Of a stretch of 64,000 bases of DNA, positions 8,821 through 35,226 are shown piece by piece; the stretch's first letter is position 1; every line of letters starts with the position of its first letter. The notes below the pieces were generated by a model. It searched no databases, had not been told where the DNA came from, and saw only the letters and a program-made list of their open reading frames with translations. Both the position numbers and the translations under genes were made by a program. The stretch is from Roseivirga seohaensis (GTDB taxonomy: Bacteria; Bacteroidota; Bacteroidia; Cytophagales; Cyclobacteriaceae): positions 248,001 to 312,000 of the forward strand of contig NZ_LRPB01000048.1 in the NCBI RefSeq assembly GCF_001592945.1. Direction: 5' to 3'.

Positions 8821-8857
8821 TTTTGGTTTTGTTTCTTATTCTTATTGACCTCACTTC

Positions 8858-8994: not shown

Positions 8995-9005
8995 TACTTT
9001 CAACG

Positions 9006-11552: not shown

Positions 11553-12652
11553 TGTTTTCCTAATTGCTCATTTATAAAAGCTAAGATACGTTCTGCTCTC
11601 TTCTCCCACGTGTAATTTTCTATGAATTTTTTATGGCCGCTTTGACCTAAGGCTTCTCGCTTGCTTACACTCATTAATGTGTTGACAGCATTTACCCAGG
11701 CCTGAATATTATCGTGCGCAGCAAAAACTGCGGTATCATCATCCAACACTTCGCGTAGTACTTCCAAATCAGAAGCAATGATAGGCTTGGAATACGACAT
11801 GTATTCAAACATTTTTAATGGAGAGGTGTATTTTCCAATATTTGACTTTTTTCCTGTTCTCACATCCGGTTGATTCGGGAGCAGGCATACATCAACATGT
11901 TGCATGTACTTCCAAATATCATCATGGTCTACAAAACCCTTTATCTCTACATTTTTTGTCTTGACTTCATTGTAAAGCTTTACTTCACTGGAATTACCTC
12001 CTATGATTATGAAGTTATGTTCGGGCAATTTGGCAGCTAATTGTAAAACCACATCAAGACCCTTTCCTTTATGAAAAGACCCGACATAAGCTATATTCAA
12101 ATATTTCTGGTCATTAAAAACAGCCTGATATTCTGGGTTGGGTAAACCAGCGGCATCCTCAATCACAACTACTCTCTTATTCAGAGCTGGATAAGCTTCA
12201 AGTAAATCATCTTTGATGGCGTGAGTAATTGTGGTGAATCCGAGACATTTTTTTTGTTTGGCTGCCTTGCTAATCGCTGCTTTGAACAGGAAACCTTTAT
12301 TCCAAGCATCATCGTGAAGCTCTATTACATAAGGAGAGGTATCCGCAATCAGTGGAAAGAGCACGAACCGTGAATAGATGGCATCATGTTGATACTTTTT
12401 GAGCCGCCTTGCAAACAACCACAGCATCCAGTACAAACCTCCCTTGATACCCGGTAACTTTATAGTAAAGTGATCAATTTTTTCAGTAAATCCGGGCCAG
12501 GCCATGCCTGTACCTTTATTACTCAGCAGCTGAACCTTAATACCGACATTGCTCAAAGCGGGCAACAGCTTTCTCACATGTACGGCACTAGCCCTGTCAG
12601 AGGGAATTCGTGTATCGGTGAGAAACAACAGTTTTTTAATCTGTTTTGTCAT
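11549..12652 (-). CDS. Glycosyltransferase family 4
   Basis: A 367-residue GT4 glycosyltransferase. The N-terminus has the DTRIPSDRASAVHV stretch common to GT4 enzymes. The C-terminal domain holds AYVGSFHKGKG and the SPLKMFEYMSYSKP motif that binds the nucleotide sugar. It is the last gene on the AT-rich side of the locus before composition changes: the next 40 bases separate it from the G+C-richer segment. It overlaps the cytidylyltransferase gene by 4 bases, which hints that it may use that enzyme's product, though GT4 enzymes seldom use CMP-sugars. Specificity is unknown. Confidence 0.87.
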   Translation of the reverse strand: MTKQIKKLLFLTDTRIPSDRASAVHVRKLLPALSNVGIKVQLLSNKGTGMAWPGFTEKIDHFTIKLPGIKGGLYWMLWLFARRLKKYQHDAIYSRFVLFPLIADTSPYVIELHDDAWNKGFLFKAAISKAAKQKKCLGFTTITHAIKDDLLEAYPALNKRVVVIEDAAGLPNPEYQAVFNDQKYLNIAYVGSFHKGKGLDVVLQLAAKLPEHNFIIIGGNSSEVKLYNEVKTKNVEIKGFVDHDDIWKYMQHVDVCLLPNQPDVRTGKKSNIGKYTSPLKMFEYMSYSKPIIASDLEVLREVLDDDTAVFAAHDNIQAWVNAVNTLMSVSKREALGQSGHKKFIENYTWEKRAERILAFINEQLGKQ

Positions 12653-12691
12653 TTATTCAATAGTCAGACAGACCTCAACTACCAAGCCTGA

Positions 12692-13768
12692 TCACTTCTT
12701 TGATTCGTTGAAATAGGCATATAATCTATCTACATTTCTGGAGACGTTGTGGTGTTCATCGATGTATTTCCTGCAGGAGGTACTTATCTTCTCATAAGTT
12801 TCATTATCTGTAACCAACGACTCTACCTGCTTAACAAACGCCTGGAAGTCTCCGTGAGAGCAATAGCCAAGATGTTCTTCTTCTATAACATCTGAAGGGT
12901 CATAGTTCATAGAAACCACAGGGCGGCCAAAAGCCCATGCCTGAAGATAGACCATGGGAAAACCTTCCGCTTCGCAGGTACTGATGAACATCCTAGAGTT
13001 TTTAATATAGCCATTGGTCATTTTCATTTCCTGCCCACCTAAAAACCTGAAATTTGGTTGCTTTTCTGCCTCTTCACCCCAACTGGCATAGTGCTCTTCC
13101 TGAGCCTTGCCTATCAGGTAAAAATCCATGTCAAGATGCTCCAGTGCTTTTGCCAAGTCGAGAAATAACTCTGGGTTTTTGACCTTTTTTATACTGGCTA
13201 CCCAAACCACATAAGGTCTGGGGGTCGGGGCAGGCTCGACATACTCGTCAAACACTCCGAAAGGGATAAAAGTCTTGTTAAAGCGCTCTGGGATAAGACC
13301 TAAGTGCTCCTTATTGATGGCAATGTAGCCATTAATCATTTTACGGGCCTGAAAGAAATGATATGCTTTGGTGACCTTCTTCAGGTTGTGCTTGAGTATA
13401 AGCCACGGACTTTTGTAGGGTTTCTTTTTAGGGTAATACTGCAAATCATTGACATGATTAACGGAAAAGAAAATCGGTATCCCAGCCTTGCGAATGTTCT
13501 TAAAATTGGGCCATATGAGTTTCTTATTATAGTTCCAGTAAAGCACATCTACCTTTTGCTTTATCAGAAAAGTGGCCAGGTCCTTTTGGTCCTGTTTGTT
13601 AATCTCAACAATCGGGTAAGGCCACTCAACAGAGTCATCATAACCATTTACTGCCCCATAAACCACATCATACCCCTTGTCCACAAAGGCCTTTGTGTTG
13701 ATATGGCAGGCTACTTCGGAACCTCCCATCACCCTTGAGAGATGTGCATTGATGATCATTACTTTCAT
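12692..13768 (-). CDS. Glycosyltransferase family 4
   Basis: A 358-residue GT4 enzyme. The N-terminal NAHLSRVMGGSEVACH stretch is the donor-phosphate loop. The C-terminal half contains VVWVASIKKVKNPE and TCEAEGFPMVYLQAW, where the second Glu of the EX7E motif is Gln. It is the last gene, in transcription order, of the G+C-richer segment and probably adds a sugar of the variable repeat unit. The spacing to its neighbours (39 and 46 bases) is looser than in the AT-rich flanks, where most genes overlap. Donor and linkage are unknown. Confidence 0.86.
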   Translation of the reverse strand: MKVMIINAHLSRVMGGSEVACHINTKAFVDKGYDVVYGAVNGYDDSVEWPYPIVEINKQDQKDLATFLIKQKVDVLYWNYNKKLIWPNFKNIRKAGIPIFFSVNHVNDLQYYPKKKPYKSPWLILKHNLKKVTKAYHFFQARKMINGYIAINKEHLGLIPERFNKTFIPFGVFDEYVEPAPTPRPYVVWVASIKKVKNPELFLDLAKALEHLDMDFYLIGKAQEEHYASWGEEAEKQPNFRFLGGQEMKMTNGYIKNSRMFISTCEAEGFPMVYLQAWAFGRPVVSMNYDPSDVIEEEHLGYCSHGDFQAFVKQVESLVTDNETYEKISTSCRKYIDEHHNVSRNVDRLYAYFNESKK

Positions 13769-13814: not shown

Positions 13815-14852
13815 TCAGTAATCCTTAACAACCTCTATTCTGTTGTGATCCAACATTTCAAAACTTCTGTATATTTTTCTGATCCGGTCATGGTGTACCA
13901 ATAAGTCTTCACTATTCAGGTAAAAGGCTTTGACCTTCAGGCGTTCTGTCGATGAAAAGATAGCGGACACATTGACCAAACCACTTGAAAAACAGGATGC
14001 AAGAATTGCCGGACGTTCTACCTGGCCATCCATGAGTATTTTTTCTGCAGGAGCATCAATGGTTAGGATTTTGAATATTTTTTCTACTTCGTCTATTTCG
14101 GCCTTGTTTTCTGTACGATGCGGAATGTAATACACATCGTGCCCTTTAAAATACTTGCTCACTCTTCGGAGCACTGTAAGGTATACGTCCGGCTTCATGT
14201 AGATTCTGCCAAGCGGTGCTCCCAGAAAATATACCTTTTCGCCAAAATTATCCAGGTTTTTAATTTTTCTCTGCTGGAGGTTGAACTGATTAATGATCAG
14301 CTGATCTCCGGGTCTGTGCAGTTTAATCCTGTAGCTGGAAAAAAAGGTGACTGCTTCCGGCAGCCTTACTTCATTGATCACTACCGGGTTATTTCCTTCG
14401 GACACTTGCTGATCAATTTTATCTGCCAGGGTTATGGTCGATGAACCATCATCAAAAAGCACCATGCGCTCAAAATCTGCTTCATTCATCAGCCTTCTCA
14501 GATAGATATCATTGGAGAGGATGTTGACGGTAAAGAGCTTTTTGATAGCTCCCCATTTCTTAATCCTTCTGAGCAGTCTGCCATAGGCAAACATATAAAG
14601 GCATCTTTTATAGATGCGCGTGTAACGTTTGGGAATGCCCCGGTCGTCAAAAAGAAAATAGAGAAAGGAATAAAAGTAGTAAACTTCCGTCCAGGAGGAT
14701 GGATCTACTTTGCCATGAAGCTGATCGTAGCAGTCGCGATAGTGACCAAATACAATCAGGTAGTTGTCATCAGCTTCACAACTGAGCTGGTGTCTGGCTT
14801 CTTCTATTTGCAGAAGGTGTGTGGCGGTGGAGATGGTGAATATATTGGCCAT
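13815..14852 (-). CDS. Sialyltransferase/polysialyltransferase-like protein
   Basis: A 345-residue protein without a close match I can name, but it carries the three short motifs of bacterial GT-B sialyltransferases: an acidic-acidic-Gly motif (LFDDGSS, near residue 135), an HP-type motif here written YYIPHRTENK (near 243), and a double Ser (ASCFSSGLVN, near 290). The gene immediately upstream is a CMP-nonulosonate synthetase gene, 20 bases away, so this protein is the best candidate to transfer the CMP-activated nine-carbon sugar. The His-Arg in place of His-Pro is a departure from the usual motif. The family assignment is a motif-level inference. Confidence 0.6.
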   Translation of the reverse strand: MANIFTISTATHLLQIEEARHQLSCEADDNYLIVFGHYRDCYDQLHGKVDPSSWTEVYYFYSFLYFLFDDRGIPKRYTRIYKRCLYMFAYGRLLRRIKKWGAIKKLFTVNILSNDIYLRRLMNEADFERMVLFDDGSSTITLADKIDQQVSEGNNPVVINEVRLPEAVTFFSSYRIKLHRPGDQLIINQFNLQQRKIKNLDNFGEKVYFLGAPLGRIYMKPDVYLTVLRRVSKYFKGHDVYYIPHRTENKAEIDEVEKIFKILTIDAPAEKILMDGQVERPAILASCFSSGLVNVSAIFSSTERLKVKAFYLNSEDLLVHHDRIRKIYRSFEMLDHNRIEVVKDY

Positions 14853-14872: not shown

Positions 14873-15559
14873 TCAATCTTCTTTTGAATTCAACACAAAC
14901 TCCGCGAGCTGCCAGTCGAGCCTAGTATCTATATCCATAGAAGAGTGCTCATCCATCAGGTACTTTCTCACTTTCTGGAATTTGCCAATGGGTTTTTCCT
15001 TCAGCACAGCGGCATGCATTACATAAATAGCCCCGTTTACCTCATAAACCTTGGGGCAGTCCTGTCTGCGGGTATAATTTCCGGGTTTTGACTTTTCCAG
15101 CCAGCCAGCCTCATTTTCTTCTTTCAAAACATAGTAGGGGTTGGCGTTGGTCTCTCTGACAGAGACTACCATATCACATACTGCATCGAACAGGTCGATG
15201 GCTCCCTGTATATGGGAGGCCGAACGAAACGGTGATGTTGGCTGCAACAGTATAATGGTATCGGGGGTGTAGCCCTTTTTTTCATAAAACTCCATGGCAT
15301 GCAGCAACGCACCATAAGTACCAGCTGTATCGGTGGCAAGTTCTGCAGGTCGTATAAAGGGTACCGGCAGGCCTGTCTTTTCCACCACTGACTTAATCTC
15401 AAAGCTATCGGTTGAAACACAAATGTGCTCATCAGGAAACACAGCCCTCGCTGCTTCTACGGTATAGTTGATCAGGGGCTTACCATTGAGCGGTTTGATA
15501 TTCTTACCAGGTACCCCTTTGGAGCCTCCCCTTGCCGGAATAATTACCAGTGGCTTCAT
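14873..15559 (-). CDS. CMP-nonulosonate (acylneuraminate/legionaminate) cytidylyltransferase
   Basis: Activates the free nine-carbon acid with CTP to give the CMP-sugar donor. It has 228 residues, the standard length. Motif 1 is IIPARGGSKGVPGKN at residues 5-19, with the Arg and Lys that grip CTP. VSTDSFEI and LQPTSPFRS follow, the latter typical of NeuA/LegF/PseF. The gene overlaps the stop of the LegX-like gene by 4 bases. Together with the synthase at 18736-19755 and the 2-epimerase at 17627-18739, it defines a nonulosonic acid pathway. Legionaminic-type rather than sialic acid is favoured by the 4,6-dehydratase and aminotransferase genes. LegF is the closest role. Confidence 0.88.
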   Translation of the reverse strand: MKPLVIIPARGGSKGVPGKNIKPLNGKPLINYTVEAARAVFPDEHICVSTDSFEIKSVVEKTGLPVPFIRPAELATDTAGTYGALLHAMEFYEKKGYTPDTIILLQPTSPFRSASHIQGAIDLFDAVCDMVVSVRETNANPYYVLKEENEAGWLEKSKPGNYTRRQDCPKVYEVNGAIYVMHAAVLKEKPIGKFQKVRKYLMDEHSSMDIDTRLDWQLAEFVLNSKED

Positions 15560-16602
15560 AAATCGAGGTGCTTGATATCTTCCTGGGCTTTAACAAAATC
15601 CTGTGGCTTTCCTATGTCCAGCCAATAGGTACGCATAGGGTAAGAAATGAGCTTGCCATTGTTTTTCAGCAGGTCTTCCATCAGGTCGGTACTGTTATAA
15701 AACTCATCCTTTGGTATTCGCTCCAGCACTTTCCGCTTAATCAGGTAAATGCCTCCATTGGAATAGTAAGTATAAGTGGGTTTTTCTTTGAATGAAAGCA
15801 CCTCATTGTTCTCCGTTTCCAACACAGCATAGGGCACATCTACATTGTAAGGAATAGTAGCAACAGACATATCAGCATCGCGCGAAATGAAGTCCAGAAA
15901 GAAGTCCTCATAATCCAGTGTTGTCAGAATATCTGAATTGGTCACCAATACATAGTCGTGCTGAAAGTTCTTGATTTTGCTCACGGCTCCAATGGTGCCG
16001 AGCGGTTTATCTTCCCATACGTAGTCAATAGTAATATTGTCCTGGGTGCCGTTGCCGAGGTGTTCCTCAATCTGTTCTCCCAGATATCTAATGGATATCC
16101 AGAAGTCGTCCATTCCAAAACGCTTCAAGCGATCCAGATTGTGCCTTATGATGGTTTTGTCTCCCACTTTAAGCAGCGGTTTGGGGGTGGTATCAGTCAT
16201 GGGCTGCAAGCGGCTGCCTCTCCCCCCCGCCATGATGACCACATCTACCGGCAGATAAGAGAGTAATTCTCTCAGGTTGATAATATTGACCACCTTCCTA
16301 TTGGCATCGATAATGGGGATGATCTTAAAATGCCCTTTTCTGAACTCAATTATCTGCTCCAGTCGGTAGTCGCCCTTTTCTATGTAGCGCGGGTTGGGCT
16401 GAATGATCTTCTCCACTTCATCCTGTACCGAAAAATCCTTGAGCAGCCCTCTCCTTACATCACCATCGGTCAGGCTGCCAATCAGTGTATCATTTTCATC
16501 TACAACAAACAAAATGGCATCTCTGGCCAGAATATTGAGCTGGGCCATGGCCTTTAATACAGTGGTTCCTTTCAGGATCAGGTGTTCTTTATAGTGCCTC
16601 AT
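15556..16602 (-). CDS. CBS-domain nucleotidyltransferase, LegX/PtmE-like
   Basis: A 348-residue two-part enzyme. A CBS pair fills residues about 5-115 and a sugar-phosphate nucleotidyltransferase domain residues about 117-348, with the signature MAGGRGSRLQPMT and the Lys of TPKPLLKVG. In the Campylobacter legionaminic acid pathway the enzyme of this architecture (PtmE) makes GDP-glucosamine, feeding a GDP-based rather than UDP-based route. Its presence is therefore the best hint that this nonulosonate is built on GDP-sugars. That would keep it separate from the UDP-bacillosamine route at 1-3512. The CBS pair may sense a nucleotide. GDP specificity is inferred. Confidence 0.82.
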   Translation of the reverse strand: MRHYKEHLILKGTTVLKAMAQLNILARDAILFVVDENDTLIGSLTDGDVRRGLLKDFSVQDEVEKIIQPNPRYIEKGDYRLEQIIEFRKGHFKIIPIIDANRKVVNIINLRELLSYLPVDVVIMAGGRGSRLQPMTDTTPKPLLKVGDKTIIRHNLDRLKRFGMDDFWISIRYLGEQIEEHLGNGTQDNITIDYVWEDKPLGTIGAVSKIKNFQHDYVLVTNSDILTTLDYEDFFLDFISRDADMSVATIPYNVDVPYAVLETENNEVLSFKEKPTYTYYSNGGIYLIKRKVLERIPKDEFYNSTDLMEDLLKNNGKLISYPMRTYWLDIGKPQDFVKAQEDIKHLDL

Positions 16603-16647
16603 CTTTCGTTTCCCGGTTGTTCAAAAAAATAGCGATGTTATTGACAA

Positions 16648-17586
16648 TTAACTTTCAGATTCTTCTAGGCGCTGCATGAGCCACTGATGATATTTCCTTA
16701 ACCCATCTTCCAGCGCAGTTTGTGGAGACCAACCTGTGTCTTTCCCGATTTTGTCAATGGACAACACAAACCTTTCAATAGCATTGTGGTCTGTTTCAAC
16801 CACCTTTGTCTGCAGTGCCTTACCCATCTGTTGTTCCACTGCTTTGACCAGTTGATTCACATCATGTCCCTGTCCTGAACCTACATTGTAAGCTCCTGTA
16901 CAGGCTGCATCAATGAGTTTTTGTACGGCCTCTATCAGATCTGCTATATATATATAGTCGCGCACCTGGCTGCCGCCTCCCCATAGCTGAAAGACCTTAT
17001 CGTTGATAATCGCATCAAAAATAATGGGAATCACTCCCTGAAGCCCATAAGAAATCTGCCCCGGCCCATAGGGATTTGAAGGCCTGATAATCAGGTACTC
17101 GAAGTAGTTTTTTGATGCATAAAACCTAATATAATCTTCAATGGCACACTTGACAATGCCATAAGAGCCTATAGGCTCCCGCGAATGGTCTTCTTTGACA
17201 AGGGCCGTTTTGGGCTCTCCATAAACAGTGCCTCCTGACGAAAAATAGATCAGCTTGCGGACTCTGGTTTCAGGTAAGATTTTCAGCAACCTAATGGTAT
17301 TCATCAGGTTGCTATTGAGATCAAAAACGGGGTCGGCATCGGCCGTCTTGGGTACCGTAGTAGAAATGAGATGAATCACTGTGTCTATTCCTACCAAAGA
17401 TTTTCTTAGAAGGTCTTCCTGCTCAAAGTCTCCATAAATGTATTGTACACCTGCCTGCTCCTTTGCACCAATCCGTCTTCTCTCAAATACGCTTACGGCA
17501 TTGTGCTCTTTCAGAACTTGCACGAGGTGGCTCCCGATAAAGCCGCTTCCACCCAAAACCAGCATGCGCTTTTCCGGCTGACTCAA
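16648..17586 (-). CDS. NAD-dependent epimerase/dehydratase (UDP-glucose 4-epimerase-like SDR)
   Basis: A 312-residue extended SDR. The cofactor motif VLGGSGFIGSH is at residues 10-20, the catalytic Ser-Gly region is YFSSGGTVYGE, and the Tyr-Lys pair is in GSYGIVK. A conserved RPSNPYGPGQ loop follows. It is intact and probably active as a 4-epimerase or reductase on an NDP-sugar for the repeat unit. It lies 40 bases after the 2-epimerase gene and 45 bases before the LegX-like gene. It is not a standard step of the legionaminic acid pathway, so it may make another sugar or modify the acid. The substrate is unknown. Confidence 0.85.
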   Translation of the reverse strand: MSQPEKRMLVLGGSGFIGSHLVQVLKEHNAVSVFERRRIGAKEQAGVQYIYGDFEQEDLLRKSLVGIDTVIHLISTTVPKTADADPVFDLNSNLMNTIRLLKILPETRVRKLIYFSSGGTVYGEPKTALVKEDHSREPIGSYGIVKCAIEDYIRFYASKNYFEYLIIRPSNPYGPGQISYGLQGVIPIIFDAIINDKVFQLWGGGSQVRDYIYIADLIEAVQKLIDAACTGAYNVGSGQGHDVNQLVKAVEQQMGKALQTKVVETDHNAIERFVLSIDKIGKDTGWSPQTALEDGLRKYHQWLMQRLEESES

Positions 17587-17626
17587 GACGTGGCGGTGTT
17601 TGTTGAAAGATAAGGACTGATCATAC

Positions 17627-18739
17627 TTAGCTTCTGGCAGACAAGTTCTCTTTAAAATAAGTCATTATGCGTTCCAATGCACGACCATCTCCATAAATTT
17701 CATCGCAGACAGTGGTCGGCCATCCTTGTTCGAAACCCAGATTGAGTGCTTCTTCAATGCTCTCTCTTTGGCAATCTGTATGGGTGATACTACCATCATG
17801 CTCCCTTCCCTCCTGTCGGGAACCTATGTTGATGACCTGCTTATGAAAATAGGGGGCTTCCATGAGCCCGCTGCTGCTATTGCCGATTACAAATTGACAG
17901 GCACTGAGTGCAGCATAGTAGCCTTGTGCTCCGAGGTTTTCACGAATGACCACCTTTTCGTGATCACGCCACTTTTCTATTACATCCAGAATTTGCTGAT
18001 AACCTGGATCATTATTAGGGTAAGTGATTAACACGGTGTGTCCCCTATCAGTGATGACTTTCAGACTATCATCCATCGCCTGGGCAATATCTTCATCTGA
18101 GCGGGTAACAGGGTGAAAGGTCATCAGGGCAAAAGCGCCCGGAAGTATGCCGGGCACAAAGTGAGCAATGGGTTTTGGTGAGGCCTGGAAATGCTTGATA
18201 GCATCAATGGCCAGTGATCCCGTAAATACCAGTTTTTTCTCATCCAGAACAGGCATTGCCTTCAGGCGCTCAAAGCTGCTCTTTGCTGTAGCTAGGATGA
18301 TATCTGAGAGGTTAGAGATGTTATAACGATAAATATTGTCTACTGCACCTTTAGTCAGATTGCCTCCTCCTGAATGGATGATGGTGACTCCTGCAAAATG
18401 ACAGGCTACTGCAGCGGCATAGGCTTCGGGCCGATCGCCCAGAATAAACATAGCATCCGGCCTCTTCTGCTCCAGAAGTACAGATAATTCTGAAATGAGC
18501 TGTGTGAATTCCTGCTGACCGGGCTCTGTATCTTCTCTGAAAACGTCTATGATAGCACTAATATCTAAGCCATCAGCCCTGATCTCATCAATGGTATGGC
18601 CAAAGCGCTTCAGCAGATGAAGCCCTGACACATAGATGCTGTAGTCAAAGTCTTCAGTGTTTGCTACTGCCGCTATTAACCGCTTCATAATGCCATAGTC
18701 AGACCTAGCTCCTGTAAAAAATCCTATTGTTTTTTTCAC
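17627..18739 (-). CDS. Hydrolysing NDP-sugar 2-epimerase, NeuC/LegG-like, altered active site
   Basis: A 370-residue member of the UDP-GlcNAc 2-epimerase family. It should release a 2-epimerised free sugar (a ManNAc or 2,4-diamino-6-deoxymannose derivative) from its nucleotide for condensation by the synthase encoded next to it. Family landmarks are TGARSDYG at residues 9-16, GDRPEAYAAA near 101, and GNSSSGLMEAP near 290. Two usually conserved positions differ: the expected H-x-H-G-G-E stretch reads HSGGGN (residues 122-127, Asn in place of Glu), and the R-H pair reads Arg138-Tyr139. Asp134 is kept. It overlaps the synthase gene by 4 bases. An altered mechanism or substrate is possible. Confidence 0.82.
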   Translation of the reverse strand: MKKTIGFFTGARSDYGIMKRLIAAVANTEDFDYSIYVSGLHLLKRFGHTIDEIRADGLDISAIIDVFREDTEPGQQEFTQLISELSVLLEQKRPDAMFILGDRPEAYAAAVACHFAGVTIIHSGGGNLTKGAVDNIYRYNISNLSDIILATAKSSFERLKAMPVLDEKKLVFTGSLAIDAIKHFQASPKPIAHFVPGILPGAFALMTFHPVTRSDEDIAQAMDDSLKVITDRGHTVLITYPNNDPGYQQILDVIEKWRDHEKVVIRENLGAQGYYAALSACQFVIGNSSSGLMEAPYFHKQVINIGSRQEGREHDGSITHTDCQRESIEEALNLGFEQGWPTTVCDEIYGDGRALERIMTYFKENLSARS

Positions 18740-19755
18740 GCTAGATGTTCCGGTCTTATTACCCTGTTCCCTTCAATGGTGGTGCTTACTTTTTTACCAA
18801 TTACCTGATCTTGTTCAGTGGGCAGATAGCCAAAACCCGGACGCTTATAGCAGAGGTCTTCCTGGGTAATGATATGCCCAACAGGTAAATCAGTTTTGGC
18901 TACAATACTCTTTCTAGCCACCTTTTTAATACCTATTTCCTTTTCAGTAAAGATTTTCTCGTTGGTTCCCATCAGAGTTTCCACCTTTCTGATTGCCTTT
19001 ACCAAGTCTGCAAACTCTTCAATGGTGGCTGAGGCCTGATGATCAGGGCCTTCGTCATTCTTGTCAAAGGTCACGTGCTTTTCTACCACGGTTGCTCCCA
19101 GGGCTACTGCGGCTATAGAGGCCTCATTACCCAGCATATGATCTGAGTAGCCTACATTTCTGCCAAATCTCTTTCTCAGCTCCAGCATCACATTCAGGTT
19201 GATGTCTTCCGGACTGGCCGGGTAGCTACTCACACAATGCAGGATAGTTATGTCTTTCGGACCCCGTGCTTCAAAAAGAGCAATACCTTTTTCAATCTCT
19301 TCAAAGGTAGACATGCCCGTTGAAAGTATAATCGGCAGGTCTTTCTGTGCCATGAAATCGACCATATCCAGGGTGAAAATTTCTCCTGAAGGAATTTTAA
19401 AGAAGGGCATGGGGATATTATCCCAAAGAAAGTTCAGGCTGTCCATTTCAAAAGCCGAACAGCTATAGTCTACCCCCAGCTCCTTACACTTTTCATACAG
19501 TTTGATATGATCCTGGAAGGGCAGCTGGTAGCGCTTAGACATTTCAATGGGTGACTTGGTTTTGTCCCGGCCTTCCTGGTAGTTGGCCTTGAAGGCGTCC
19601 AGTGAGTAGGAATTGAGTGGATTGCCCATTTGAAATTTCACTGCATCTACGCCTATAGCCGCGAGTGCTTCCACATATTTCAGCGCCACTTCCAGGCTCC
19701 CGTTATGGTTGGGGCCTACCTCAGCGATGATGTAACAGCCTTGCTTATCTTTCAT
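18736..19755 (-). CDS. Nonulosonic acid synthase, NeuB/LegI-like
   Basis: Condenses phosphoenolpyruvate with a six-carbon amino sugar to make a nine-carbon 2-keto acid. It has 339 residues, the standard length. The TIM barrel holds AEVGPNHNG near residue 11, KFQ near 40, the PSGE loop near 121, HCVSSYPASPEDINL near 173, and GYSDHMLG near 196. A C-terminal antifreeze-like SAF domain occupies about residues 280-339. The upstream gene is the ATP-grasp gene (11-base overlap) and the downstream one the 2-epimerase gene (4-base overlap). The presence of dehydratase and aminotransferase genes points to a legionaminic-type acid; NeuB, LegI and PseI cannot be separated with certainty by eye. Confidence 0.9.
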   Translation of the reverse strand: MKDKQGCYIIAEVGPNHNGSLEVALKYVEALAAIGVDAVKFQMGNPLNSYSLDAFKANYQEGRDKTKSPIEMSKRYQLPFQDHIKLYEKCKELGVDYSCSAFEMDSLNFLWDNIPMPFFKIPSGEIFTLDMVDFMAQKDLPIILSTGMSTFEEIEKGIALFEARGPKDITILHCVSSYPASPEDINLNVMLELRKRFGRNVGYSDHMLGNEASIAAVALGATVVEKHVTFDKNDEGPDHQASATIEEFADLVKAIRKVETLMGTNEKIFTEKEIGIKKVARKSIVAKTDLPVGHIITQEDLCYKRPGFGYLPTEQDQVIGKKVSTTIEGNRVIRPEHLA

Positions 19756-20701
19756 AGAAATATAGTTTTATCCCTTTCATGCCTACAATCTCACGTGGTG
19801 TTCCTGTCAGATTGGCTTCTTTGCCCATGGAAAGGTCAATAATTGCTTTTAAATAGTTAAGTCCTGAATTGTGGGTGAAGGGATAGCCTCCTCCAAAGCG
19901 GGGATTGAAGTCGATGAAGTACACTTCACCGGCCTCTGTTTCCATAAAGTCGATGTCCATGTTACCGGTATGCCTGAATTTTGCACTGAGCTCTCTGGCC
20001 ATTTCAACAAAGGCTTCGCTGCTAAAGGACCTTGCCTTGTCTGTTTCTCCTGCCCGCATGGCCATCTTTTCTCTGAAGTGGGCACTGAGAAATTCACCCT
20101 GATAGTTGTTGAAAATATCCATTCCTACTTCCCTGCCTTCTATCATATCCTGCAGCAGGAAGGTATCAAAATCTACCGTTTGGAGGGCTTTAGCATCTCT
20201 GATAATTTCAAGACCGACACTACCGCTTCCCAAAATGGCTTTTTTGATAACCGGGAACCTGATAATCGCTCTGGCCTCTTCTATATTCCAATAAGACCTG
20301 GGCACCCTGATATCATTGGCCAGACACCATGCGTAGCTTTTCTTTTTGTCCAGGCATTGGTTAATTACCCCGGAGTCAGAAACCCAGATGCGCGTGCCCG
20401 ACTCAAGGAACCTTGCCTTATTTTCACTCAGCACAGGTAGCTCAAAGTCCATCAGGGGAATGATCACATCGATCTGATGCTCTTTACAGATTGCCTCCAA
20501 TGCTTTGAGATAATTAGCTTCATTTCCGCTGACATAAGGAGTCAATACAGGTATCACTTTTTCAGATACACTAAATGCCGCTGTATCTCTAGACACATCT
20601 CCTGCAAAAATTGTCAGGTCATAGCCCTCTTGTTCGGCAAGCTCCAGCGCATACTCAATGAGATAGGTTCTTCTTCCGGCATTGGTGAAAAGCAGGTTCA
20701 T
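19745..20701 (-). CDS. ATP-grasp ligase, carbamoyl-phosphate synthase-like
   Basis: A 318-residue ATP-grasp protein. The N-terminal domain (residues 1-110) begins LLFTNAGRRTYL. The ATP-binding part includes the VIKKAILGSGSVG loop near 150 and LLQDMIEGREVGMDI near 181. The metal-binding end is YFIDFNPRFGGGYP near 269. Such ligases join a carboxylate to an amine or similar nucleophile with ATP. It overlaps the PLP-enzyme gene upstream by 4 bases and the synthase gene downstream by 11 bases, so it acts with the nonulosonate pathway, perhaps attaching an amino acid to an amino sugar. Substrates are unknown. This step is absent from the canonical legionaminic pathway. Confidence 0.8.
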   Translation of the reverse strand: MNLLFTNAGRRTYLIEYALELAEQEGYDLTIFAGDVSRDTAAFSVSEKVIPVLTPYVSGNEANYLKALEAICKEHQIDVIIPLMDFELPVLSENKARFLESGTRIWVSDSGVINQCLDKKKSYAWCLANDIRVPRSYWNIEEARAIIRFPVIKKAILGSGSVGLEIIRDAKALQTVDFDTFLLQDMIEGREVGMDIFNNYQGEFLSAHFREKMAMRAGETDKARSFSSEAFVEMARELSAKFRHTGNMDIDFMETEAGEVYFIDFNPRFGGGYPFTHNSGLNYLKAIIDLSMGKEANLTGTPREIVGMKGIKLYFYER

Positions 20702-21537
20702 AGCAGGTTGTTCAGCATTCCACCTGTGTTTACCACCAGGGTGTTGCTCATTTCTTTTCTGTAAAAATACTCGATGCTTTTGGCATTGTAAATAGGATCA
20801 GGCAATACGGATGTTTCTTTGAAAAACCACTGTCGGGCGGCCTCTGTTTCAGGGGTTCTGTCGTGATAGCGACCGGCATAATCATCTACAATCTCCAGCG
20901 GGCTTAACTCGGTCTCCGACCCGGCAAACTCTGCTGCTGCCTGCAGGCAGCGCTCTTTGTCTCTTGCTACTGAAACCCCAATGACCCTTGTCGGCAATTG
21001 CAAAGCTGATACCGCCTTGCAAATTCCAAAGGCCGTAGTGCCGGTACCATAGGGCAAAATGATATGCCCGACCGATCTTAGTGTCTCATTGGCCTGAAAA
21101 AGTGACTTAAAATAGGCACAATATTCTGCTGCAGCTCCGGGGGTATGCCCTCCACCGGGTATCCACAAATAGTCTTTGTATCGCTCTTTCTGCTCGTCAA
21201 TAAAAGCCGTTGCTTCCGCTCCTTTAACAAAGAGCACTTTGGCTCCAAAATCAATACTGGCTTTCAGGTGTGGAAAGTCTCTCTCGTCAACTTCGCTTTC
21301 TGCAATAATGATCAGCACCACTGGCTTGCCCAGGTAGGCTCCGTAAAAGGCGGTGGTCATACAGTGGCTTGAAAAGACAGACCCTAGTGTGATGAACCCG
21401 TTCACCTCAGGTTGCTCTTTAAGAATACCATTGAACTTACGCAGCTTGTTGCCTGATACATAGCTGTGATTCTGCCCTTCATCGAGCAGTAGGTTACCAC
21501 TGTTCAAGCTTTGAATATGATGTTGTAGTGCGATCAA
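20698..21537 (-). CDS. PLP-dependent enzyme, ACC deaminase/D-cysteine desulfhydrase-like (short)
   Basis: A 279-residue fold-type II PLP enzyme. The Schiff-base lysine is Lys31 in SGNKLRKF, followed by a GSVFSSHCMTTAF stretch and a Gly-rich phosphate-binding loop in LPYGTGTTAFG near 185. Relatives such as ACC deaminase and D-cysteine desulfhydrase are about 325-340 residues, so the N-terminal start is shorter here and the C-terminus is trimmed; catalytic motifs remain. It overlaps the ATP-grasp gene by 4 bases, which suggests that it makes or releases a small amino acid used by that ligase. This function is inference. Starts further upstream are blocked by the formyltransferase gene 7 bases away. 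Confidence 0.75.
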   Translation of the reverse strand: MIALQHHIQSLNSGNLLLDEGQNHSYVSGNKLRKFNGILKEQPEVNGFITLGSVFSSHCMTTAFYGAYLGKPVVLIIIAESEVDERDFPHLKASIDFGAKVLFVKGAEATAFIDEQKERYKDYLWIPGGGHTPGAAAEYCAYFKSLFQANETLRSVGHIILPYGTGTTAFGICKAVSALQLPTRVIGVSVARDKERCLQAAAEFAGSETELSPLEIVDDYAGRYHDRTPETEAARQWFFKETSVLPDPIYNAKSIEYFYRKEMSNTLVVNTGGMLNNLL

Positions 21538-21544
21538 AAAAAGA

Positions 21545-22333
21545 TCAGGATTTAAAAAAGGGCTGGGTAGTCATGTAGATTTTATTACCATTGATAACGG
21601 TATAGGCAGACTCGTGACCCGGAAAATCAAGGCCTCTTACCCTTCTGTCCAGCTCTTCCGGAGTAATTATGGCAAGATCAATTTCTTTTCTCTTGTCTAT
21701 CGCCTTTTTGTTAAAGTATTCCTTCTTTTCCCCGTTGGCGATGTACACTGACTGAGGAACAGCTTCAATCGTTTCATCAACGATGCTGTCAATATTATCA
21801 CTAAAGGCCTTAAAGAGAGCAAATTGTGTCTTTCGATAGACTGTGTAGGAGGTGTCTGTGGATTCCAGGTCAAAGAACTCTCTGGCCAGTAAATCTCCTG
21901 CATCAATGGCTTCATTGATGATATGCAAAGTACCGCCACTTTGAGTATCGCCTTCTATAATACAGTGATTGGCAATGTGCAATCCGCTACGGGCGGGCAA
22001 AATACCACCATGCATATTAATAAGGTATTTGGCAAACAGATTGAGGAAGGGAGGCTTGTAAATAATGGAAGCCCTGCAGCTAATACCATAGTCAAAGGCT
22101 CCTGCTTCAAATGCGTCTACTACCTCCTGCTGGCTGTGGAGTGTACGAATACCATATTTCTGTGCCTCGTCATACAGGCATGTTTTATCTTCCCAGGGAT
22201 CATTGGCAAACACCTTGGACCTGGCCAGTGTAAGCACTGCCGCCACTTCTACTTTGGGATGATTATGGAGTACCCTGAAAACCTTAGTGGCCAAAGGAAT
22301 ATCTCCGATTACCAGGAATTTTACTTTACTCAT
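21545..22333 (-). CDS. Sugar N-formyltransferase (methionyl-tRNA formyltransferase family)
   Basis: A 262-residue protein with the formyltransferase fold that uses 10-formyltetrahydrofolate. The catalytic trio is visible as Asn106 and His108 in LINMHGGILPARSG and Asp144 in IDAGD. It lacks room for the full tRNA-binding C-terminal domain of Fmt (about 315 residues), so it is a sugar-modifying type, like the N-formyltransferases of O-antigen pathways. Lying between the aminotransferase and synthase genes, it takes the place where the LegH N-acetyltransferase gene is expected. It likely formylates the 4-amino group of the sugar. It starts 3 bases from the methyltransferase stop. Confidence 0.83.
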   Translation of the reverse strand: MSKVKFLVIGDIPLATKVFRVLHNHPKVEVAAVLTLARSKVFANDPWEDKTCLYDEAQKYGIRTLHSQQEVVDAFEAGAFDYGISCRASIIYKPPFLNLFAKYLINMHGGILPARSGLHIANHCIIEGDTQSGGTLHIINEAIDAGDLLAREFFDLESTDTSYTVYRKTQFALFKAFSDNIDSIVDETIEAVPQSVYIANGEKKEYFNKKAIDKRKEIDLAIITPEELDRRVRGLDFPGHESAYTVINGNKIYMTTQPFFKS

Positions 22334-22336
22334 CTC

Positions 22337-23242
22337 TTATCGTTTTCTGCTATTCCAGATGACGTGTTTGTGCAGTGAACCATTGGCATCAAAATAGTCA
22401 AATACATTTCTTACCTGATCCTCTTTCTCTTCCAGCTCTTCCAGAGAAAACTCACCACGGCTTGTTTTTATTCTGAGTATAGAGGGCAGCAGTGACAGCC
22501 CGTGGTAGTCCAGAAACTCAAAACCGGCTGCTGCCAGGTGGCCTTTCATATCATCTTTGGTAAAGAGCCTGAACTTGAATTCTGTTTTTCCTTTTCCTTC
22601 TTTAAAACGTCTTTCCTCCAGGTTTTCCAGCAGGTCCTCGATCTCATCCAGAATCACTGACTTATAGGTAGCTCCTTCAATATCAGGCTCACTGTTCACC
22701 AGAATACCTCCTGACTTGAGCACCCGATGTGCTTCACCCAGTGCTTTTTCGAAATTTTCGTTGAGGTAATAAAACACGCCAATGGCTAGAGCCACATCTA
22801 CCAGTCCATCAGGAATGGGCAGACTGTCTGCAGAACAGTGTATTACCATCAATCGATCAGTCAGACCGTTTTTCTCTGCGTATTGGGCGAGGTCAAAAAG
22901 GGGCTGAATGTGTGCATCCAGGGCGATCACATTATAGCCTTTGTTGAGCAATAGTTCCGTGAACCTGCCATCACCACAACCAATATCAATCGCGAGTTTT
23001 CCTTCAGGGTTTTCTACTCCTTCTATGAAACCATTGATGGCTTTTTCATAGTAGGGTGTTTCCCAGTAAGACAAATGAAATTTCTGATCCCTGAGTGTTC
23101 TGAGAATGGAGCCAGTTGACATTTTATCATGATATTCTATGCCTAGATTTTTCTCCATCTCTGCGGTATAAATACCTGTCGACTCGAATTCTGAGAGCTG
23201 TGGGGCAGCTTCCAGGACTGTATTTTTCCAATGATCGTTCAT
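22337..23242 (-). CDS. SAM-dependent methyltransferase, class I
   Basis: A 301-residue methyltransferase. Motif I is AIDIGCGDGRF near residue 84, an acidic residue binding SAM ribose follows in VIALDAH, and motif post-I to IV is DVALAIGVFYYL near 149. The first 75 residues are extra N-terminal sequence. It lies 8 bases after the aminotransferase gene and 3 before the formyltransferase gene, so it probably methylates an intermediate or product of the nonulosonate pathway, on O or N. The acceptor cannot be deduced from sequence. Confidence 0.83.
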   Translation of the reverse strand: MNDHWKNTVLEAAPQLSEFESTGIYTAEMEKNLGIEYHDKMSTGSILRTLRDQKFHLSYWETPYYEKAINGFIEGVENPEGKLAIDIGCGDGRFTELLLNKGYNVIALDAHIQPLFDLAQYAEKNGLTDRLMVIHCSADSLPIPDGLVDVALAIGVFYYLNENFEKALGEAHRVLKSGGILVNSEPDIEGATYKSVILDEIEDLLENLEERRFKEGKGKTEFKFRLFTKDDMKGHLAAAGFEFLDYHGLSLLPSILRIKTSRGEFSLEELEEKEDQVRNVFDYFDANGSLHKHVIWNSRKR

Positions 23243-23250
23243 CTCCTTAA

Positions 23251-24393
23251 TTATACTTTAACACTACTTGGGATATTCACTATTCTTTCTTCCAGCCAGA
23301 TACTATTGGCAAGGCTGTCTTTCTGACATTGCTCATACATAGGCAAGCTTGAAATAAGCCTCCATATAGGCCTGGTCATCACTGCCGCATCATTAGTTTC
23401 CTGCAAAAACCGATTTCTTTCTTCAAGATTCTCCAATTCAACACTGATAAGCCAATGGTTCCAGTCAGTGCCGGCAGGAATGGGTTTAAGCCTGGCCGAC
23501 TCCCCGGTAAATACCTCTTGATATGAGGCAAGGAGCACTTTTTTAGCACTCTTTATTTCTTCTATGCGTTCCATCTGAGCACAGGCTAGTGCGGCATTTA
23601 CGTTGGGCATACGAAAATTATAGCCCAGTTCATCATGTACATACTCCCACCTATGGGGTACTTTGGCCGTAGTAGTCAGGTATTTTGCCTTCTCCGCAAA
23701 CTGCGCGTCTTTCGACACTATGGTTCCACCTCCTCCGGAGGTAATGATCTTATTACCGTTAAAGCTGAAAGCTCCGGTCTGGCCAAAGCTACCCGCAGAC
23801 TGGCCTTTGTATTTACTACCCAGGGCTTCTGCGGCATCTTCTACTACTTGGATTTTCCAGCGATCACAAATAGCAACTATCTCGTCTATGCGACACATGT
23901 ACCCAAAGGTATGCATCGGTACACAGGCGGCTATTCTCCTTCCTGTTGATTTGTTAAAACACCCTTCTTCACGCAGCTCCCCAAACTCATCCAGAAAGGC
24001 GGACAGTGCCAGAGGAGACATGCCCATGGTATCTAGGTCCACATCAATAAACACAGGCCGGGCAGAATTGTAGGCAATGGCATTGGCCGTAGCCACAAAA
24101 GTAAGTGCCTGAGTCAGTACCTCTGTACCCTTGCTCACTCCGGCCAATCGCATGCCCACCTGTAGTGCTGCCGTACCATTGACCACTGCAACAGCCTTGG
24201 CGGTTTCTGTATAGCGAGCCATCTCTGCCTCAAAGCGATCTACATAGGCGCCCACAGAAGACACAAATGTGGTATCAATTGTGTCCGCTAAGTAGTTCTT
24301 TTCATTTCCTGAAAAACAGGGTTCGTGCAATGGTGTAAAATCACGATTGCCGTTTATCTCCTTTATCTGCGCTATGGTCTTGCTATAAGTCAT
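23251..24393 (-). CDS. DegT-family sugar aminotransferase, LegC-like
   Basis: A 380-residue PLP-dependent aminotransferase. The Schiff-base lysine is Lys215 in FSFNGNK, followed by a Gly-rich SGGGG. VNGTAALQVG near 71 and VVEDAAEALGS near 183 hold PLP. It is clearly a second copy of the fold encoded at 1181-2317, but it differs in composition and detail, so it is not a recent duplicate. It follows a 4,6-dehydratase gene, as LegC follows LegB, and would put the 4-amino group on the keto sugar. LegC is the preferred role. The nucleotide (GDP or UDP) is unproven. Confidence 0.88.
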   Translation of the reverse strand: MTYSKTIAQIKEINGNRDFTPLHEPCFSGNEKNYLADTIDTTFVSSVGAYVDRFEAEMARYTETAKAVAVVNGTAALQVGMRLAGVSKGTEVLTQALTFVATANAIAYNSARPVFIDVDLDTMGMSPLALSAFLDEFGELREEGCFNKSTGRRIAACVPMHTFGYMCRIDEIVAICDRWKIQVVEDAAEALGSKYKGQSAGSFGQTGAFSFNGNKIITSGGGGTIVSKDAQFAEKAKYLTTTAKVPHRWEYVHDELGYNFRMPNVNAALACAQMERIEEIKSAKKVLLASYQEVFTGESARLKPIPAGTDWNHWLISVELENLEERNRFLQETNDAAVMTRPIWRLISSLPMYEQCQKDSLANSIWLEERIVNIPSSVKV

Positions 24394-24428
24394 TTTTAAT
24401 GGGTTTCTATCCTGCTTTATCCAGCAGT

Positions 24429-25622
24429 TTACATTTTACTATCCAAGTATTTCCCAGTCTCCAGATGACCAAAGCCCGGAATCATCTCATGAAAGAGACT
24501 AACGATTTCATCCTTCCTCCAGGCTCCTCGAGTGATCATTTGTTGAATTCGCCTCTCGAAATGATTCAGTTTTTCATCATCAAAGGATAGCTCGTTTTTG
24601 ATGATTCCCAGGTTGGCAAAGCGCTCCATATCCAGTGTTTCGCTTTCAGTAAAAAACTCTTCAAAGTCTTTTTCACCCGTTGTATCGCTTGGAGTAAACA
24701 GGCAGGGCCATTGCTTTTTGGCAGGTAATCCATGCACGAGAGACCTTGCTTCTTCTTCTGTCTCACAAAGATATGGCTCAAAGCCCCTTTGCTCTAGGTA
24801 TTTCACAGCTATGCTGGAAAAGGTGGTGAGATGAAGTGAGTCACTGAGTTTAGGAAAGAATATGTCCCTATTCTCACCAAATACACATGACATCAGACAT
24901 AGTTCTCCAGACTCCTGGGGGGTTACAAAGTAGCGTTTAATATCGTTGGGAGCCACAATAGGTTGTTGCTTGGCAATGCGCTGATTAAAACCGTGTAAAA
25001 GTGAGCCGTCAGAAAAAGCTACATTGGCAAAACGGGCTGTTGAAATATCGATCTGCTGACTTCTGCGCATCAGAAAAAGCTCCATAATGCGCTTAGATCC
25101 ACCCATCATATTTACTGGATTGGCGGCCTTATCGGTAGAAACACAGAAATACTTTTTGGCACCTTTTTCTATGGACTGGCCAATGGTCTTATCGGTATTG
25201 AAGACATTGACATTGATCATACGCATCAGCGTGAATGGATCTTTCTCGCTTCTTACATGCTTAAGTGCCGACAGGTTGAGTACATAGTCATAGACTCCAT
25301 CCTGATTAATAAAAGTATTGTATTCTGCTGAACCAATGTCCAGCGCGAAAGTCCCGAAATCACCTTCTATGTATCCGAATGAAGATCTGATATCTCTTAC
25401 CAGTTCTACAAGGTTATTCTCAGAGATGTCTACTACATGTAGCTTTCGGGGCGTACGCTTAAATATCTCCTTTACTACTGCCTGACCAATTGACCCGGCT
25501 CCTCCCAAAACCAGAAAGGTGGATTCGCTTACAATCTGGCTGAGTTCCTCTTCCGATGCTTTAATATCCGACTCAAACAAAGGGCTTTGGCGGCCAATCA
25601 GATCAAGTAGTTGTAAGTTCAT
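24429..25622 (-). CDS. NDP-GlcNAc 4,6-dehydratase, LegB-like
   Basis: A 397-residue soluble dehydratase. The NAD(P) motif LVLGGAGSIGQAVV lies near residue 37. The catalytic set is Ser in CVSTDKAANPVN and Met-x3-Lys in MMGGSK (Met in place of Tyr), the Ser-Met-Lys arrangement of CapD/WbpM/LegB enzymes. Unlike the PglF-like protein encoded at 1-1184, it has no N-terminal membrane helices. It starts the nonulosonate pathway by forming the 4-keto-6-deoxy sugar, and the aminotransferase gene follows 35 bases later. The C-terminal 110 residues form an extra helical part seen in the longer family members. LegB is the preferred role. Confidence 0.87.
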   Translation of the reverse strand: MNLQLLDLIGRQSPLFESDIKASEEELSQIVSESTFLVLGGAGSIGQAVVKEIFKRTPRKLHVVDISENNLVELVRDIRSSFGYIEGDFGTFALDIGSAEYNTFINQDGVYDYVLNLSALKHVRSEKDPFTLMRMINVNVFNTDKTIGQSIEKGAKKYFCVSTDKAANPVNMMGGSKRIMELFLMRRSQQIDISTARFANVAFSDGSLLHGFNQRIAKQQPIVAPNDIKRYFVTPQESGELCLMSCVFGENRDIFFPKLSDSLHLTTFSSIAVKYLEQRGFEPYLCETEEEARSLVHGLPAKKQWPCLFTPSDTTGEKDFEEFFTESETLDMERFANLGIIKNELSFDDEKLNHFERRIQQMITRGAWRKDEIVSLFHEMIPGFGHLETGKYLDSKM

Positions 25623-35225: not shown

Positions 35226-35226
35226 G

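Follow-up and report, generated by a model that had tools for sequence, protein, structure and literature searches.

Introduction

The closest described route to the one considered here is the CMP-legionaminic acid pathway of the Campylobacter/Legionella type, in which LegB, LegC, LegH, LegG, LegI and LegF act together with PtmE/LegX. In legionaminic-type pathways a substituent of the hexosamine N-4 ends up on N-7 of the nonulosonate, and how a bacterial surface is recognized by hosts, phages and lectins depends in part on the N-acyl groups that its nonulosonic acids carry. The formyltransferase PseJ, for which structures have been solved (6ci2), acts in pseudaminate synthesis. N-formyl is listed among the usual nonulosonate substituents in PMC6388019; PMC6137143 describes N-formyl-legionaminic acid in Halorubrum PV6 together with a candidate formyltransferase gene, and PMC5109656 a Geobacillus locus in which a formyltransferase takes the place of an acetyltransferase gene. 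In C. difficile the terminal peptidylamido sugar is lost when an ATP-grasp gene or an ornithine-cyclodeaminase-like gene is mutated (PMC5207246), and Fuc3N carries a cap with taurine, alanine and glycine (PMC5207245).

Here we describe an operon on the minus strand of a 64,000-nucleotide stretch of Roseivirga seohaensis DNA (the window), which, in our judgment with a chance just short of even, makes a CMP-activated legionaminic-type nonulosonic acid whose LegH-derived acetyl group would be replaced by an amino-acid-derived acyl group.

The operon and its enzymes

The operon (14873-25622) follows the chemical order of the CMP-legionaminic acid pathway, with members of the LegC, NeuC and NeuB families, a PtmE-like protein and a CMP synthetase (Table 1), but differs from it in having no LegH, a four-gene cassette in the LegH slot, an extra SDR, a dehydratase outside the TIGR04180 model and a NeuB under the equivalog cut-off. 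The genes that an earlier note on this DNA had named are all intact open reading frames. Its LegC-like aminotransferase and LegG-like 2-epimerase pass the respective models, and its PtmE/LegX-like nucleotidyltransferase and CMP synthetase contain the CBS and NTP_transferase and the cytidylyltransferase domains, the synthetase scoring 146.2 on the PseF equivalog (cut-off 205.7). The label "LegB-like" suits the dehydratase insofar as it is 72-76% identical to LegC-adjacent dehydratases in eight other genomes of the phylum, but at E ≤ 0.001 it has no match to the LegB model TIGR04180, on which two SDRs score 90.9 and 97.4 (cut-off 475). The LegI-like synthase likewise has the domain PF03102 but reaches 355.2 bits on the equivalog TIGR03569, whose cut-off is 399.65. 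The genes listed in the note are present, but it had passed over the PLP enzyme (PALP) and the ATP-grasp enzyme between formyltransferase and NeuB as well as the SDR between NeuC and PtmE; in the eight phylum clusters where both neighboring genes were found, no SDR match lies between them. On TIGR01275 (D-cysteine desulfhydrase/ACC deaminase subfamily) PALP scores 44.8 against a cut-off of 289.4.

Table 1. Genes of the operon, the gene next to it and the NeuD/PglD-family acetyltransferase gene of the window, with family-model scores (cut-offs in brackets)
Feature	Position	Strand	Basis
4,6-dehydratase, PF02719 type (LegB role)	24429-25622	-	PF02719 144.6 bits
LegC-type aminotransferase	23251-24393	-	TIGR04181 509.8 bits (420)
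SAM-dependent methyltransferase, first in LegH-slot cassette	22337-23242	-	PF08241 67.3 bits
Formyltransferase, N106/H108/D144 intact	21545-22333	-	PF00551 58.7 bits (26.1)
PLP enzyme (PALP), ACC deaminase/D-cysteine desulfhydrase-like	20698-21537	-	PF00291 49.3 bits (35)
ATP-grasp enzyme, carboxylate-amine ligase type	19745-20701	-	PF02655 47.7, PF21360 53.7 bits
Divergent NeuB-family synthase	18736-19755	-	PF03102 264.3 bits
Divergent NeuC/LegG-family hydrolysing 2-epimerase	17627-18739	-	TIGR03568 306.7 bits (235.9)
Extra SDR-family NAD-dependent epimerase/dehydratase	16648-17586	-	PF01370 139.4 bits
PtmE/LegX-like CBS + nucleotidyltransferase	15556-16602	-	PF00483 136.9, PF00571 32.8 bits
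CMP-nonulosonate synthetase	14873-15559	-	PF02348 86.1 bits (22.6)
Polysialyltransferase-like protein, candidate nonulosonate transferase	13815-14852	-	PF07388 weak, 19.8 bits (23.3)
NeuD/PglD-family acetyltransferase	2310-2909		TIGR03570 219.8 bits (160.8)

The PtmE/LegX-like gene suggests that the nonulosonate route is GDP-linked. The gaps are 7 bases between formyltransferase and PALP, −4 between PALP and ATP-grasp and −11 between ATP-grasp and NeuB, and because their reading frames overlap, translational coupling of the PALP, ATP-grasp, NeuB and NeuC genes is suggested. The polysialyltransferase-like gene follows the CMP synthetase gene after 20 bases. The cassette is kept in Roseivirga sp. 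UBA6061, with pN/pS values of 0.06-0.25 across 11 operon genes; the methyltransferase is 89% identical to the UBA6061 copy (pN/pS 0.077). Gene content and order, the intact reading frames, the slot comparison and trees reported below and this upkeep in a second species are established directly.

The LegH slot in the phylum

Ten genomes of the phylum have a LegB with 67% identity or more. The gene directly after LegC is of the NeuD/LegH type in seven of them and encodes a formyltransferase in two; in the remaining one LegC is absent there. In the window exactly this place is taken by four genes, for methyltransferase, formyltransferase, PALP and ATP-grasp enzyme. As the earlier note had stated, no LegH N-acetyltransferase is encoded in the operon, but a NeuD/PglD-family acetyltransferase lies elsewhere in the window.

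In three other genomes of the phylum (G470, G332 and G542) a formyltransferase stands alone between LegC and NeuB. This plain exchange of formyl for acetyl is an arrangement distinct from the Roseivirga cassette: the formyltransferase is the sole gene in the slot, it is of another type (299 amino acids; the G470 copy scores on the Fmt and ArnA models), and NeuB resembles that of NeuD clusters. With these genomes, PseJ, the Halorubrum compound in print (PMC6137143) and the listing of N-formyl as a usual substituent (PMC6388019), the case for novelty of a plain formyl group is weak. Weak, too, is the position 4-N-formyl given in the earlier note: a group on the hexosamine N-4 would be found on N-7 of the nonulosonate.

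The formyltransferase

Asn106, His108 and Asp144, read directly from the sequence as in the earlier note, are invariant in four aligned formyltransferases, and the methyltransferase gene is adjacent, also as noted. The protein falls into no named sugar formyltransferase equivalog (the best, NF005755, gives 58.4 against 238), and among the PDB structures that match it best are sugar N-formyltransferases, one of them for GDP-4-amino-4,6-dideoxy-mannose. In a tree of 35 rows (13 picked, 22 from 24 short loci, a weak formyltransferase match being present in 74 genomes) the enzymes of the window, UBA6061 and G546 form one clade with support 99/98, and forcing the window type together with the LegH-slot enzymes of G470, G332 and G542 is rejected (p-AU 2.68e-09).

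Among 395 genomes of the phylum only the G546 formyltransferase is near that of the window (1.2e-45; the next 5.2e-15). This nearest relative outside Roseivirga stands in a dTDP-sugar locus and is followed by PALP and ATP-grasp; since it is the one member of the subfamily found outside the genus, the link of the formyltransferase to PALP and ATP-grasp rests on two lineages. In genome contigs a single close relative turned up; three further matches were weak (29-32%), with no PALP or ATP-grasp match in their stretches; within the stretch of the Halorientalis enzyme (29%), NeuB, PALP and ATP-grasp are not annotated. Viral contigs searched with the PALP and formyltransferase alignments gave no confirmed relative, and on plasmids neither the methyltransferase nor the G546 formyltransferase found a match at E ≤ 1e-15.

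The PALP and ATP-grasp genes elsewhere

PALP matches the structures 1j0a and 7ysk and contains the motif GNKLRK, of which K31 and K34 are invariant among five aligned PALPs; at the place of SNH in the other four, the window protein has SSH. In the PALP tree it lies on one side with the cassette PALPs (weak support, 57/33), and in the ATP-grasp tree the five PALP-paired rows form one clade (100/99) against nine others, which were hand-picked. Within this clade a GNAT can take the place of the formyltransferase. The order is AT-FT-PALP-ATPgrasp in G546 and AT-GNAT-PALP-ATPgrasp on an E. coli plasmid, both behind rmlB-rfbA, and PALP-GNAT-ATPgrasp in Sphingobium and G624. All five PALP plus ATP-grasp loci examined lie amid glycan genes, and an aminotransferase adjoins four of these loci; no clear one adjoins the G624 cassette.

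PALP matches occur in 12 genomes of the phylum, and ATP-grasp stands beside PALP in only 3 of these (the window, G546 and G624). As similar DNA, the GNAT version was found in E. coli solely on plasmids (4 of 5426 genomes). ATP-grasp matches came from 36 plasmid records, of which 11 were inspected; among the annotated ones (H6 and H12 carry no annotation) PALP lies beside ATP-grasp in none but those of E. coli and Sphingobium.

Divergence of NeuB and NeuC

Identities were compared with eight of the ten LegB relatives (all but G556 and G507) and, for the other genes, also with G542; the CMP synthetase was compared in seven of these nine genomes. NeuB has a mean identity of 40% (38-42) to its nine relatives, which average 66% among themselves and each at least 60% to the others, the three genomes with a formyltransferase alone included. 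NeuC has a mean of 29% to relatives that average 53% among themselves, and no other of the 395 phylum genomes matches it at E ≤ 1e-55; its divergence is weak evidence, because NeuC also varies from one relative to another: G487, whose cluster is of the NeuD type, averages 34% and G542 42%. Judged by identity, NeuB is a clear outlier and NeuC one less uniquely, while LegB and PtmE (61-66%) are ordinary. The divergence of NeuB may have arisen through ancestry alone.

Proposed pathway and alternatives

We argue for an amino acid substituent because the PALP and ATP-grasp genes, overlooked before, are present. LegB and LegC would form nucleotide-linked 4-amino-4,6-dideoxy-GlcNAc, GDP-linked if PtmE acts as LegX. 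PALP would supply or tailor an amino acid, the carboxyl of which the ATP-grasp enzyme, as putative ligase, would join to the C-4 amine of the sugar. The formyltransferase would cap the amino acid nitrogen with 10-formyl-THF before or after coupling, at the place of the GNAT in the sister cassettes; of all these steps, the one held with least certainty is that it acts on the amino acid and not on the sugar. The methyltransferase would methylate the amino acid or the sugar, the bulkier substrate would be accepted by NeuC and, above all, by the divergent NeuB, and the aminoacyl group would finally, in all probability, be located on N-7. We know of no substrate for any enzyme of the Roseivirga cassette.

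On the reading that we favor, at a chance just short of even, a transferable cassette would replace LegH, leading to an N-formyl-(perhaps methyl-)aminoacyl nonulosonic acid. More tentatively, and with somewhat less than even confidence, we propose that an undescribed aminoacylation cassette, made up of formyltransferase or GNAT as cap, PALP and ATP-grasp and in most cases accompanied by an aminotransferase, is passed between amino-sugar pathways, and that here NeuB and perhaps NeuC have adapted to it. A description of such a cassette was not found in the titles and abstract beginnings of the literature matches listed; most subscription journals lay outside the search. If the proposal is true, there is a new way to decorate sialic-acid-like sugars, aminoacyl amino sugars become predictable from gene content, enzymes for new sialic-acid mimics become available, and capped-amino-acid chemistry is set apart from the plain formyl swap.

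The earlier note had the formyltransferase stand in for the acetyltransferase. On such a model it would formylate the nucleotide sugar at the C-4 amine, as LegH would acetylate it; a 7-N-formyl (Leg5Ac7Fo-like) acid would result, and methyltransferase, PALP and ATP-grasp would work on other parts. That the N-acylation slot is altered and holds a formyltransferase with an intact triad stands, and the three genomes with this enzyme alone in the slot, the Halorubrum and Geobacillus precedents and the sugar N-formyltransferases among the PDB matches speak in its favor. However, the window enzyme is not of the LegH-slot type, the closest enzyme to it outside the genus belongs to a dTDP-sugar cassette that also contains PALP and ATP-grasp, the three clusters keep a NeuD-cluster-like NeuB, which the window does not, and PALP and ATP-grasp between formyltransferase and NeuB are left unexplained. 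We consider direct formylation of the sugar amine unlikely. Far more improbable still is a mere co-transcription in which PALP and ATP-grasp would make a free metabolite, N-formylated or methylated, that has nothing to do with the nonulosonate: known PALP relatives are catabolic, but the glycan context of all five loci, the aminotransferase beside four of them and the overlapping frames through NeuC argue against it.

It is also rather unlikely that the NeuD-family acetyltransferase of the window, or another enzyme, acetylates N-4, and that the cassette modifies either a different sugar of the polysaccharide or another nitrogen, for example N-5 (compare Leg5GluNMe7Ac of C. botulinum). The gene passes TIGR03570 in the same locus, LegH and PglD types did not separate in a tree (p-AU 0.18), the adjoining aminotransferase nearly reaches the LegC model (391.1 vs. 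420), and a legionaminic acid bearing an amino acid and a methyl group is named in PMC13317340. By our reading, however, its neighbors on the two sides are PglC- and PglE-like and a candidate PglF-like gene lies further out; such a bacillosamine-type set would explain why it is there. Among the 13 genes compared its conservation is lowest (pN/pS 0.378), and the cassette stands in the LegH slot between LegC and NeuB, not behind the CMP synthetase.

Comparison with known systems

The replacement of LegH by an aminoacylating cassette, as we propose it, has partial counterparts. With PseJ, Halorubrum PV6 and the three phylum genomes Roseivirga has in common a formyltransferase beside nonulosonate genes. 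The C. difficile type B flagellin genes CDR20291_0244-0247 (PMC5207246), likened here by their description in that paper, also combine an aminotransferase, an amino-acid-metabolising enzyme and a CPSase-like ATP-grasp protein beside glycan genes, but there the sugar is Fuc3N, an ornithine-cyclodeaminase-like protein takes the place of PALP and a FemAB-like one that of the formyltransferase. In Shewanella oneidensis, sfmABCDE (PMC3765264) forms a separate operon, and the word "formyl" is absent from that text; its nonulosonic acid nevertheless bears a further methyl-bearing moiety, and methyltransferase and ATP-grasp genes are involved. For Pse5Ac7Ac, an isomer of Leg5Ac7Ac, that paper gives a di-N-acetyl oxonium ion of m/z 317.134. 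The plasmid loci of E. coli and Sphingobium differ in sugar context, in a GNAT instead of the formyltransferase and in that no NeuB is annotated nearby, but share with Roseivirga the PALP and ATP-grasp families and the ATP-grasp clade, and in E. coli the gene order is the same, with the GNAT at the place of the formyltransferase.

Organization of the operon

The nonulosonate operon of R. seohaensis is one tight minus-strand gene run within a polysaccharide locus (see the table), and the genes upstream of it look Wza/Wzc-like. From LegC through NeuC the intergenic gaps are, in order, 8, 3, 7, −4, −11 and −4 bases; all ORFs of the operon are intact, and the G+C content of its eleven genes is 0.43–0.48 versus 0.404 in the window. 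The genes named in the earlier note are real and the formyltransferase (FT) carries N106, H108 and D144, but the PALP and ATP-grasp genes went unmentioned there.

Features of the operon, in order of transcription from position 25622, and of its surroundings
Feature	Positions
Nonulosonate operon (minus strand)	14873-25622
PF02719 dehydratase (LegB)	
LegC aminotransferase	
Methyltransferase	
FT	
PALP-family PLP enzyme	20698-21537
ATP-grasp enzyme	19745-20701
NeuB	
NeuC	
SDR	16648-17586
PtmE-like CBS/nucleotidyltransferase	
CMP synthetase	
Beyond: weakly polysialyltransferase-like protein, then glycosyltransferases	
Downstream gene group	8158-11552
Second cytidylyltransferase (among the preceding)	10803-11552
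370-aa protein	5933-7045
NeuD-family protein	2310-2909
PglF-, PglE-, PglD-, PglC-like genes	1-3512, with 7281-11513 of stretch L012
FT of Roseivirga sp. UBA6061	34951-35733 of its contig
G487 cluster	10904-13632 of stretch L066

The SDR has no counterpart between NeuC and PtmE in the relatives' clusters read and might bring about a configuration change or a keto-group reduction. The second cytidylyltransferase lies downstream with genes for a HAD phosphatase, a 2-hydroxyacid dehydrogenase and an SDR; the whole group is kept in UBA6061 and perhaps serves a second CMP-activated compound. Neither Pfam nor NCBIfam gave a match for the 370-aa protein (E ≤ 0.001), and UBA6061 has a 371-aa ORF in the same place. 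By reading, the Pgl-like genes form a bacillosamine-type set that ends the same polysaccharide locus.

The LegH slot in relatives

With the window dehydratase as query, 17 of 395 phylum genomes gave matches at E ≤ 1e-60, the window's own included; ten others are 67–76% identical. Directly after LegC, in the LegH slot, seven of the ten (G656, G602, G487, G311, G556, G444 and G448) have a NeuD/LegH-type gene and two (G470 and G332) an FT; in G507 no LegC match was found beside the dehydratase. In the clusters of the six more distant dehydratases (38–45%) the stretch read gave no NeuB match; their neighbours are LegC- and NeuD-like in G462, and PtmE- and CMP-synthetase-like in G660. The FT search added G542, with the order LegC-FT-NeuB-PtmE-CMP synthetase and NeuC ahead of LegC. 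The LegH-slot FTs of G470, G332 and G542 have 299 aa, and the G470 copy scores on the Fmt and ArnA models. Since the FT stands alone after LegC in these three genomes, the plain formyl-for-acetyl arrangement proposed in the earlier note exists there; the window slot, unlike theirs, holds four genes, methyltransferase-FT-PALP-ATP-grasp. In G487 the slot is taken by a NeuD-type gene, NeuC is divergent, and an FT-like gene and a 223-aa ORF lie before PtmE; this may mean a second N-acyl change.

A second Roseivirga copy

A search for the FT in 291 genomes of the order, a sample without UBA6061 (G673), gave a single genome at E ≤ 1e-20, the window's own; at the same threshold the ATP-grasp enzyme is present in 2 of 19 genomes of the genus, the second being UBA6061. 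There the locus has the identical order, spread over two contigs, with identities of 83% (LegB), 77% (LegC), 89% (methyltransferase), 90% (FT), 71% (PALP, 226 residues present), 81% (ATP-grasp), 93% (NeuB), 72% (NeuC), 85% (PtmE) and 85% (CMP synthetase). With synonymous sites near saturation, pN/pS is 0.059 for NeuB, 0.076 for FT, 0.077 for the methyltransferase and 0.116–0.250 in the remaining eight of the operon genes compared; outside the operon, NeuD gave 0.378 and PglC 0.217. Judged by sequence comparison, the operon genes are maintained across both genomes.

Recurrence of the cassette

Once the window's own FT is set aside, the best match in the 395 phylum genomes is that of G546 (E = 1.2e-45, 34%; next 5.2e-15), where the order is rmlB, rfbA, a 487-aa ORF, aminotransferase, FT, PALP, ATP-grasp. 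A maximum-likelihood tree built on 35 FT rows, with long branches that include G546, groups the window, UBA6061 and G546 FTs with support 99/98. A topology uniting the two Roseivirga FTs and the three LegH-slot FTs was rejected (p-AU 2.7e-9).

An E. coli plasmid carries rmlB, rfbA, a "lipopolysaccharide biosynthesis protein", aminotransferase, GNAT, PALP and ATP-grasp, an order like that of G546 with the GNAT standing in the place of the FT. Of 5426 E. coli genomes, 4 carry this dTDP-sugar set (L021, NZ_LR890610.1), each time on a plasmid. Sphingobium and G624 have sugar transferase, PALP, GNAT and ATP-grasp; an aminotransferase comes next in Sphingobium, and in G624 the sole aminotransferase match is weak and lies at some distance.

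In a 14-row tree the five PALP-paired ATP-grasps form one side of a branch (100/99) versus nine others, six of which are annotated beside a HAD hydrolase; ATP-grasp plus HAD hydrolase is a separate conserved pair. Six stretches of polysaccharide loci (L022, L116, L119–L122) have a HAD hydrolase next after a related ATP-grasp, three of them (L116, L119, L120) with a formyltransferase-family gene nearby. By contrast, PALP matches at E ≤ 1e-12 occur in 12 phylum genomes, and 9 of these show no ATP-grasp match near the PALP. In the PALP tree the window enzyme is weakly placed (57/33), and the group of the other four cassette PALPs has support 95/92; the window enzyme reads SSH versus SNH in those four. 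This placement and the SSH are the weakest link in equating the window cassette with the others.

Divergence of NeuB and NeuC

Mean identities, window-to-relatives versus among relatives, are 74 versus 77 for LegB (eight of the ten relatives, G556 and G507 left out), with G542 added 64 versus 72 for PtmE, 59 versus 76 for LegC, 40 versus 66 for NeuB and 29 versus 53 for NeuC, and 49 versus 44 for CMP synthetase (seven of those nine). Each relative's NeuB averages 60–70% to the others, those of the plain-FT genomes G470, G332 and G542 68–70%, while the window's is 38–42% identical to them; the NeuBs of G656 and G470 pass TIGR03569 (502 and 495 bits), whereas the window's (355) does not. NeuC averages 29% in the window, 34% in G487 (a NeuD cluster) and 42% in G542, so the window is not alone in having a low NeuC identity. 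Against PDB 5xvs, NeuC of G656 scores 209 bits and that of the window 130; no other NeuC match at E ≤ 1e-55 was found in the 395 phylum genomes. NeuB must take the N-acylated hexosamine as its substrate, and an odd NeuB would be expected alongside an unusual acyl group; different ancestry alone could also account for it.

Interpretation

ATP-grasp enzymes convert a carboxylate to an acyl phosphate, which is then attacked by an amine. For formyltransferases of this fold the donor is 10-formyl-THF, and small amino acids are the substrates of this group of PALP enzymes. The likeliest reading, to which we give slightly less than an even chance, is that an aminoacylating cassette would take the place of LegH, as a new variant. 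The earlier observation is in part confirmed and its interpretation in part supported.

It is possible that the FT formylates the sugar directly, sugar N-formyltransferases being among its best PDB matches. Possible, too, is that the NeuD-family protein is the acetyltransferase for the nonulosonate: it passes TIGR03570, and its PglE-like neighbour scores near the LegC cut-off (391 versus 420), but its neighbours read PglC-, PglE- and PglF-like and would make up a bacillosamine-type gene set. Because LegH and PglD were not told apart by sequence alone, we keep this alternative beside the aminoacylating cassette. The genome has another gene of the NeuD family (C6, 175.3 bits) outside this locus, with no recognisable glycan gene in the 18 kb read.

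Comparison with known systems

Halorubrum PV6 has N-formyl-legionaminic acid, with HrrPV6_1050 as candidate formyltransferase, and also legH and neuD homologues (PMC6137143). In C. difficile the cap is a Fuc3N that bears taurine, alanine and glycine (PMC5207245); mutants in CDR20291_0245 (ATP-grasp) and 0246, whose exact roles are undetermined according to the authors, make the core trisaccharide only and lose the terminal peptidylamido sugar (PMC5207246). Among the sfm genes of Shewanella are one for a methyltransferase and one for an ATP-grasp enzyme; its flagellin carries a probable nonulosonic acid whose 236 Da moiety can bear extra methyls (PMC3765264). The C. botulinum product is Leg5GluNMe7Ac, for which the methyltransferase PtmH was suggested (PMC13317340).
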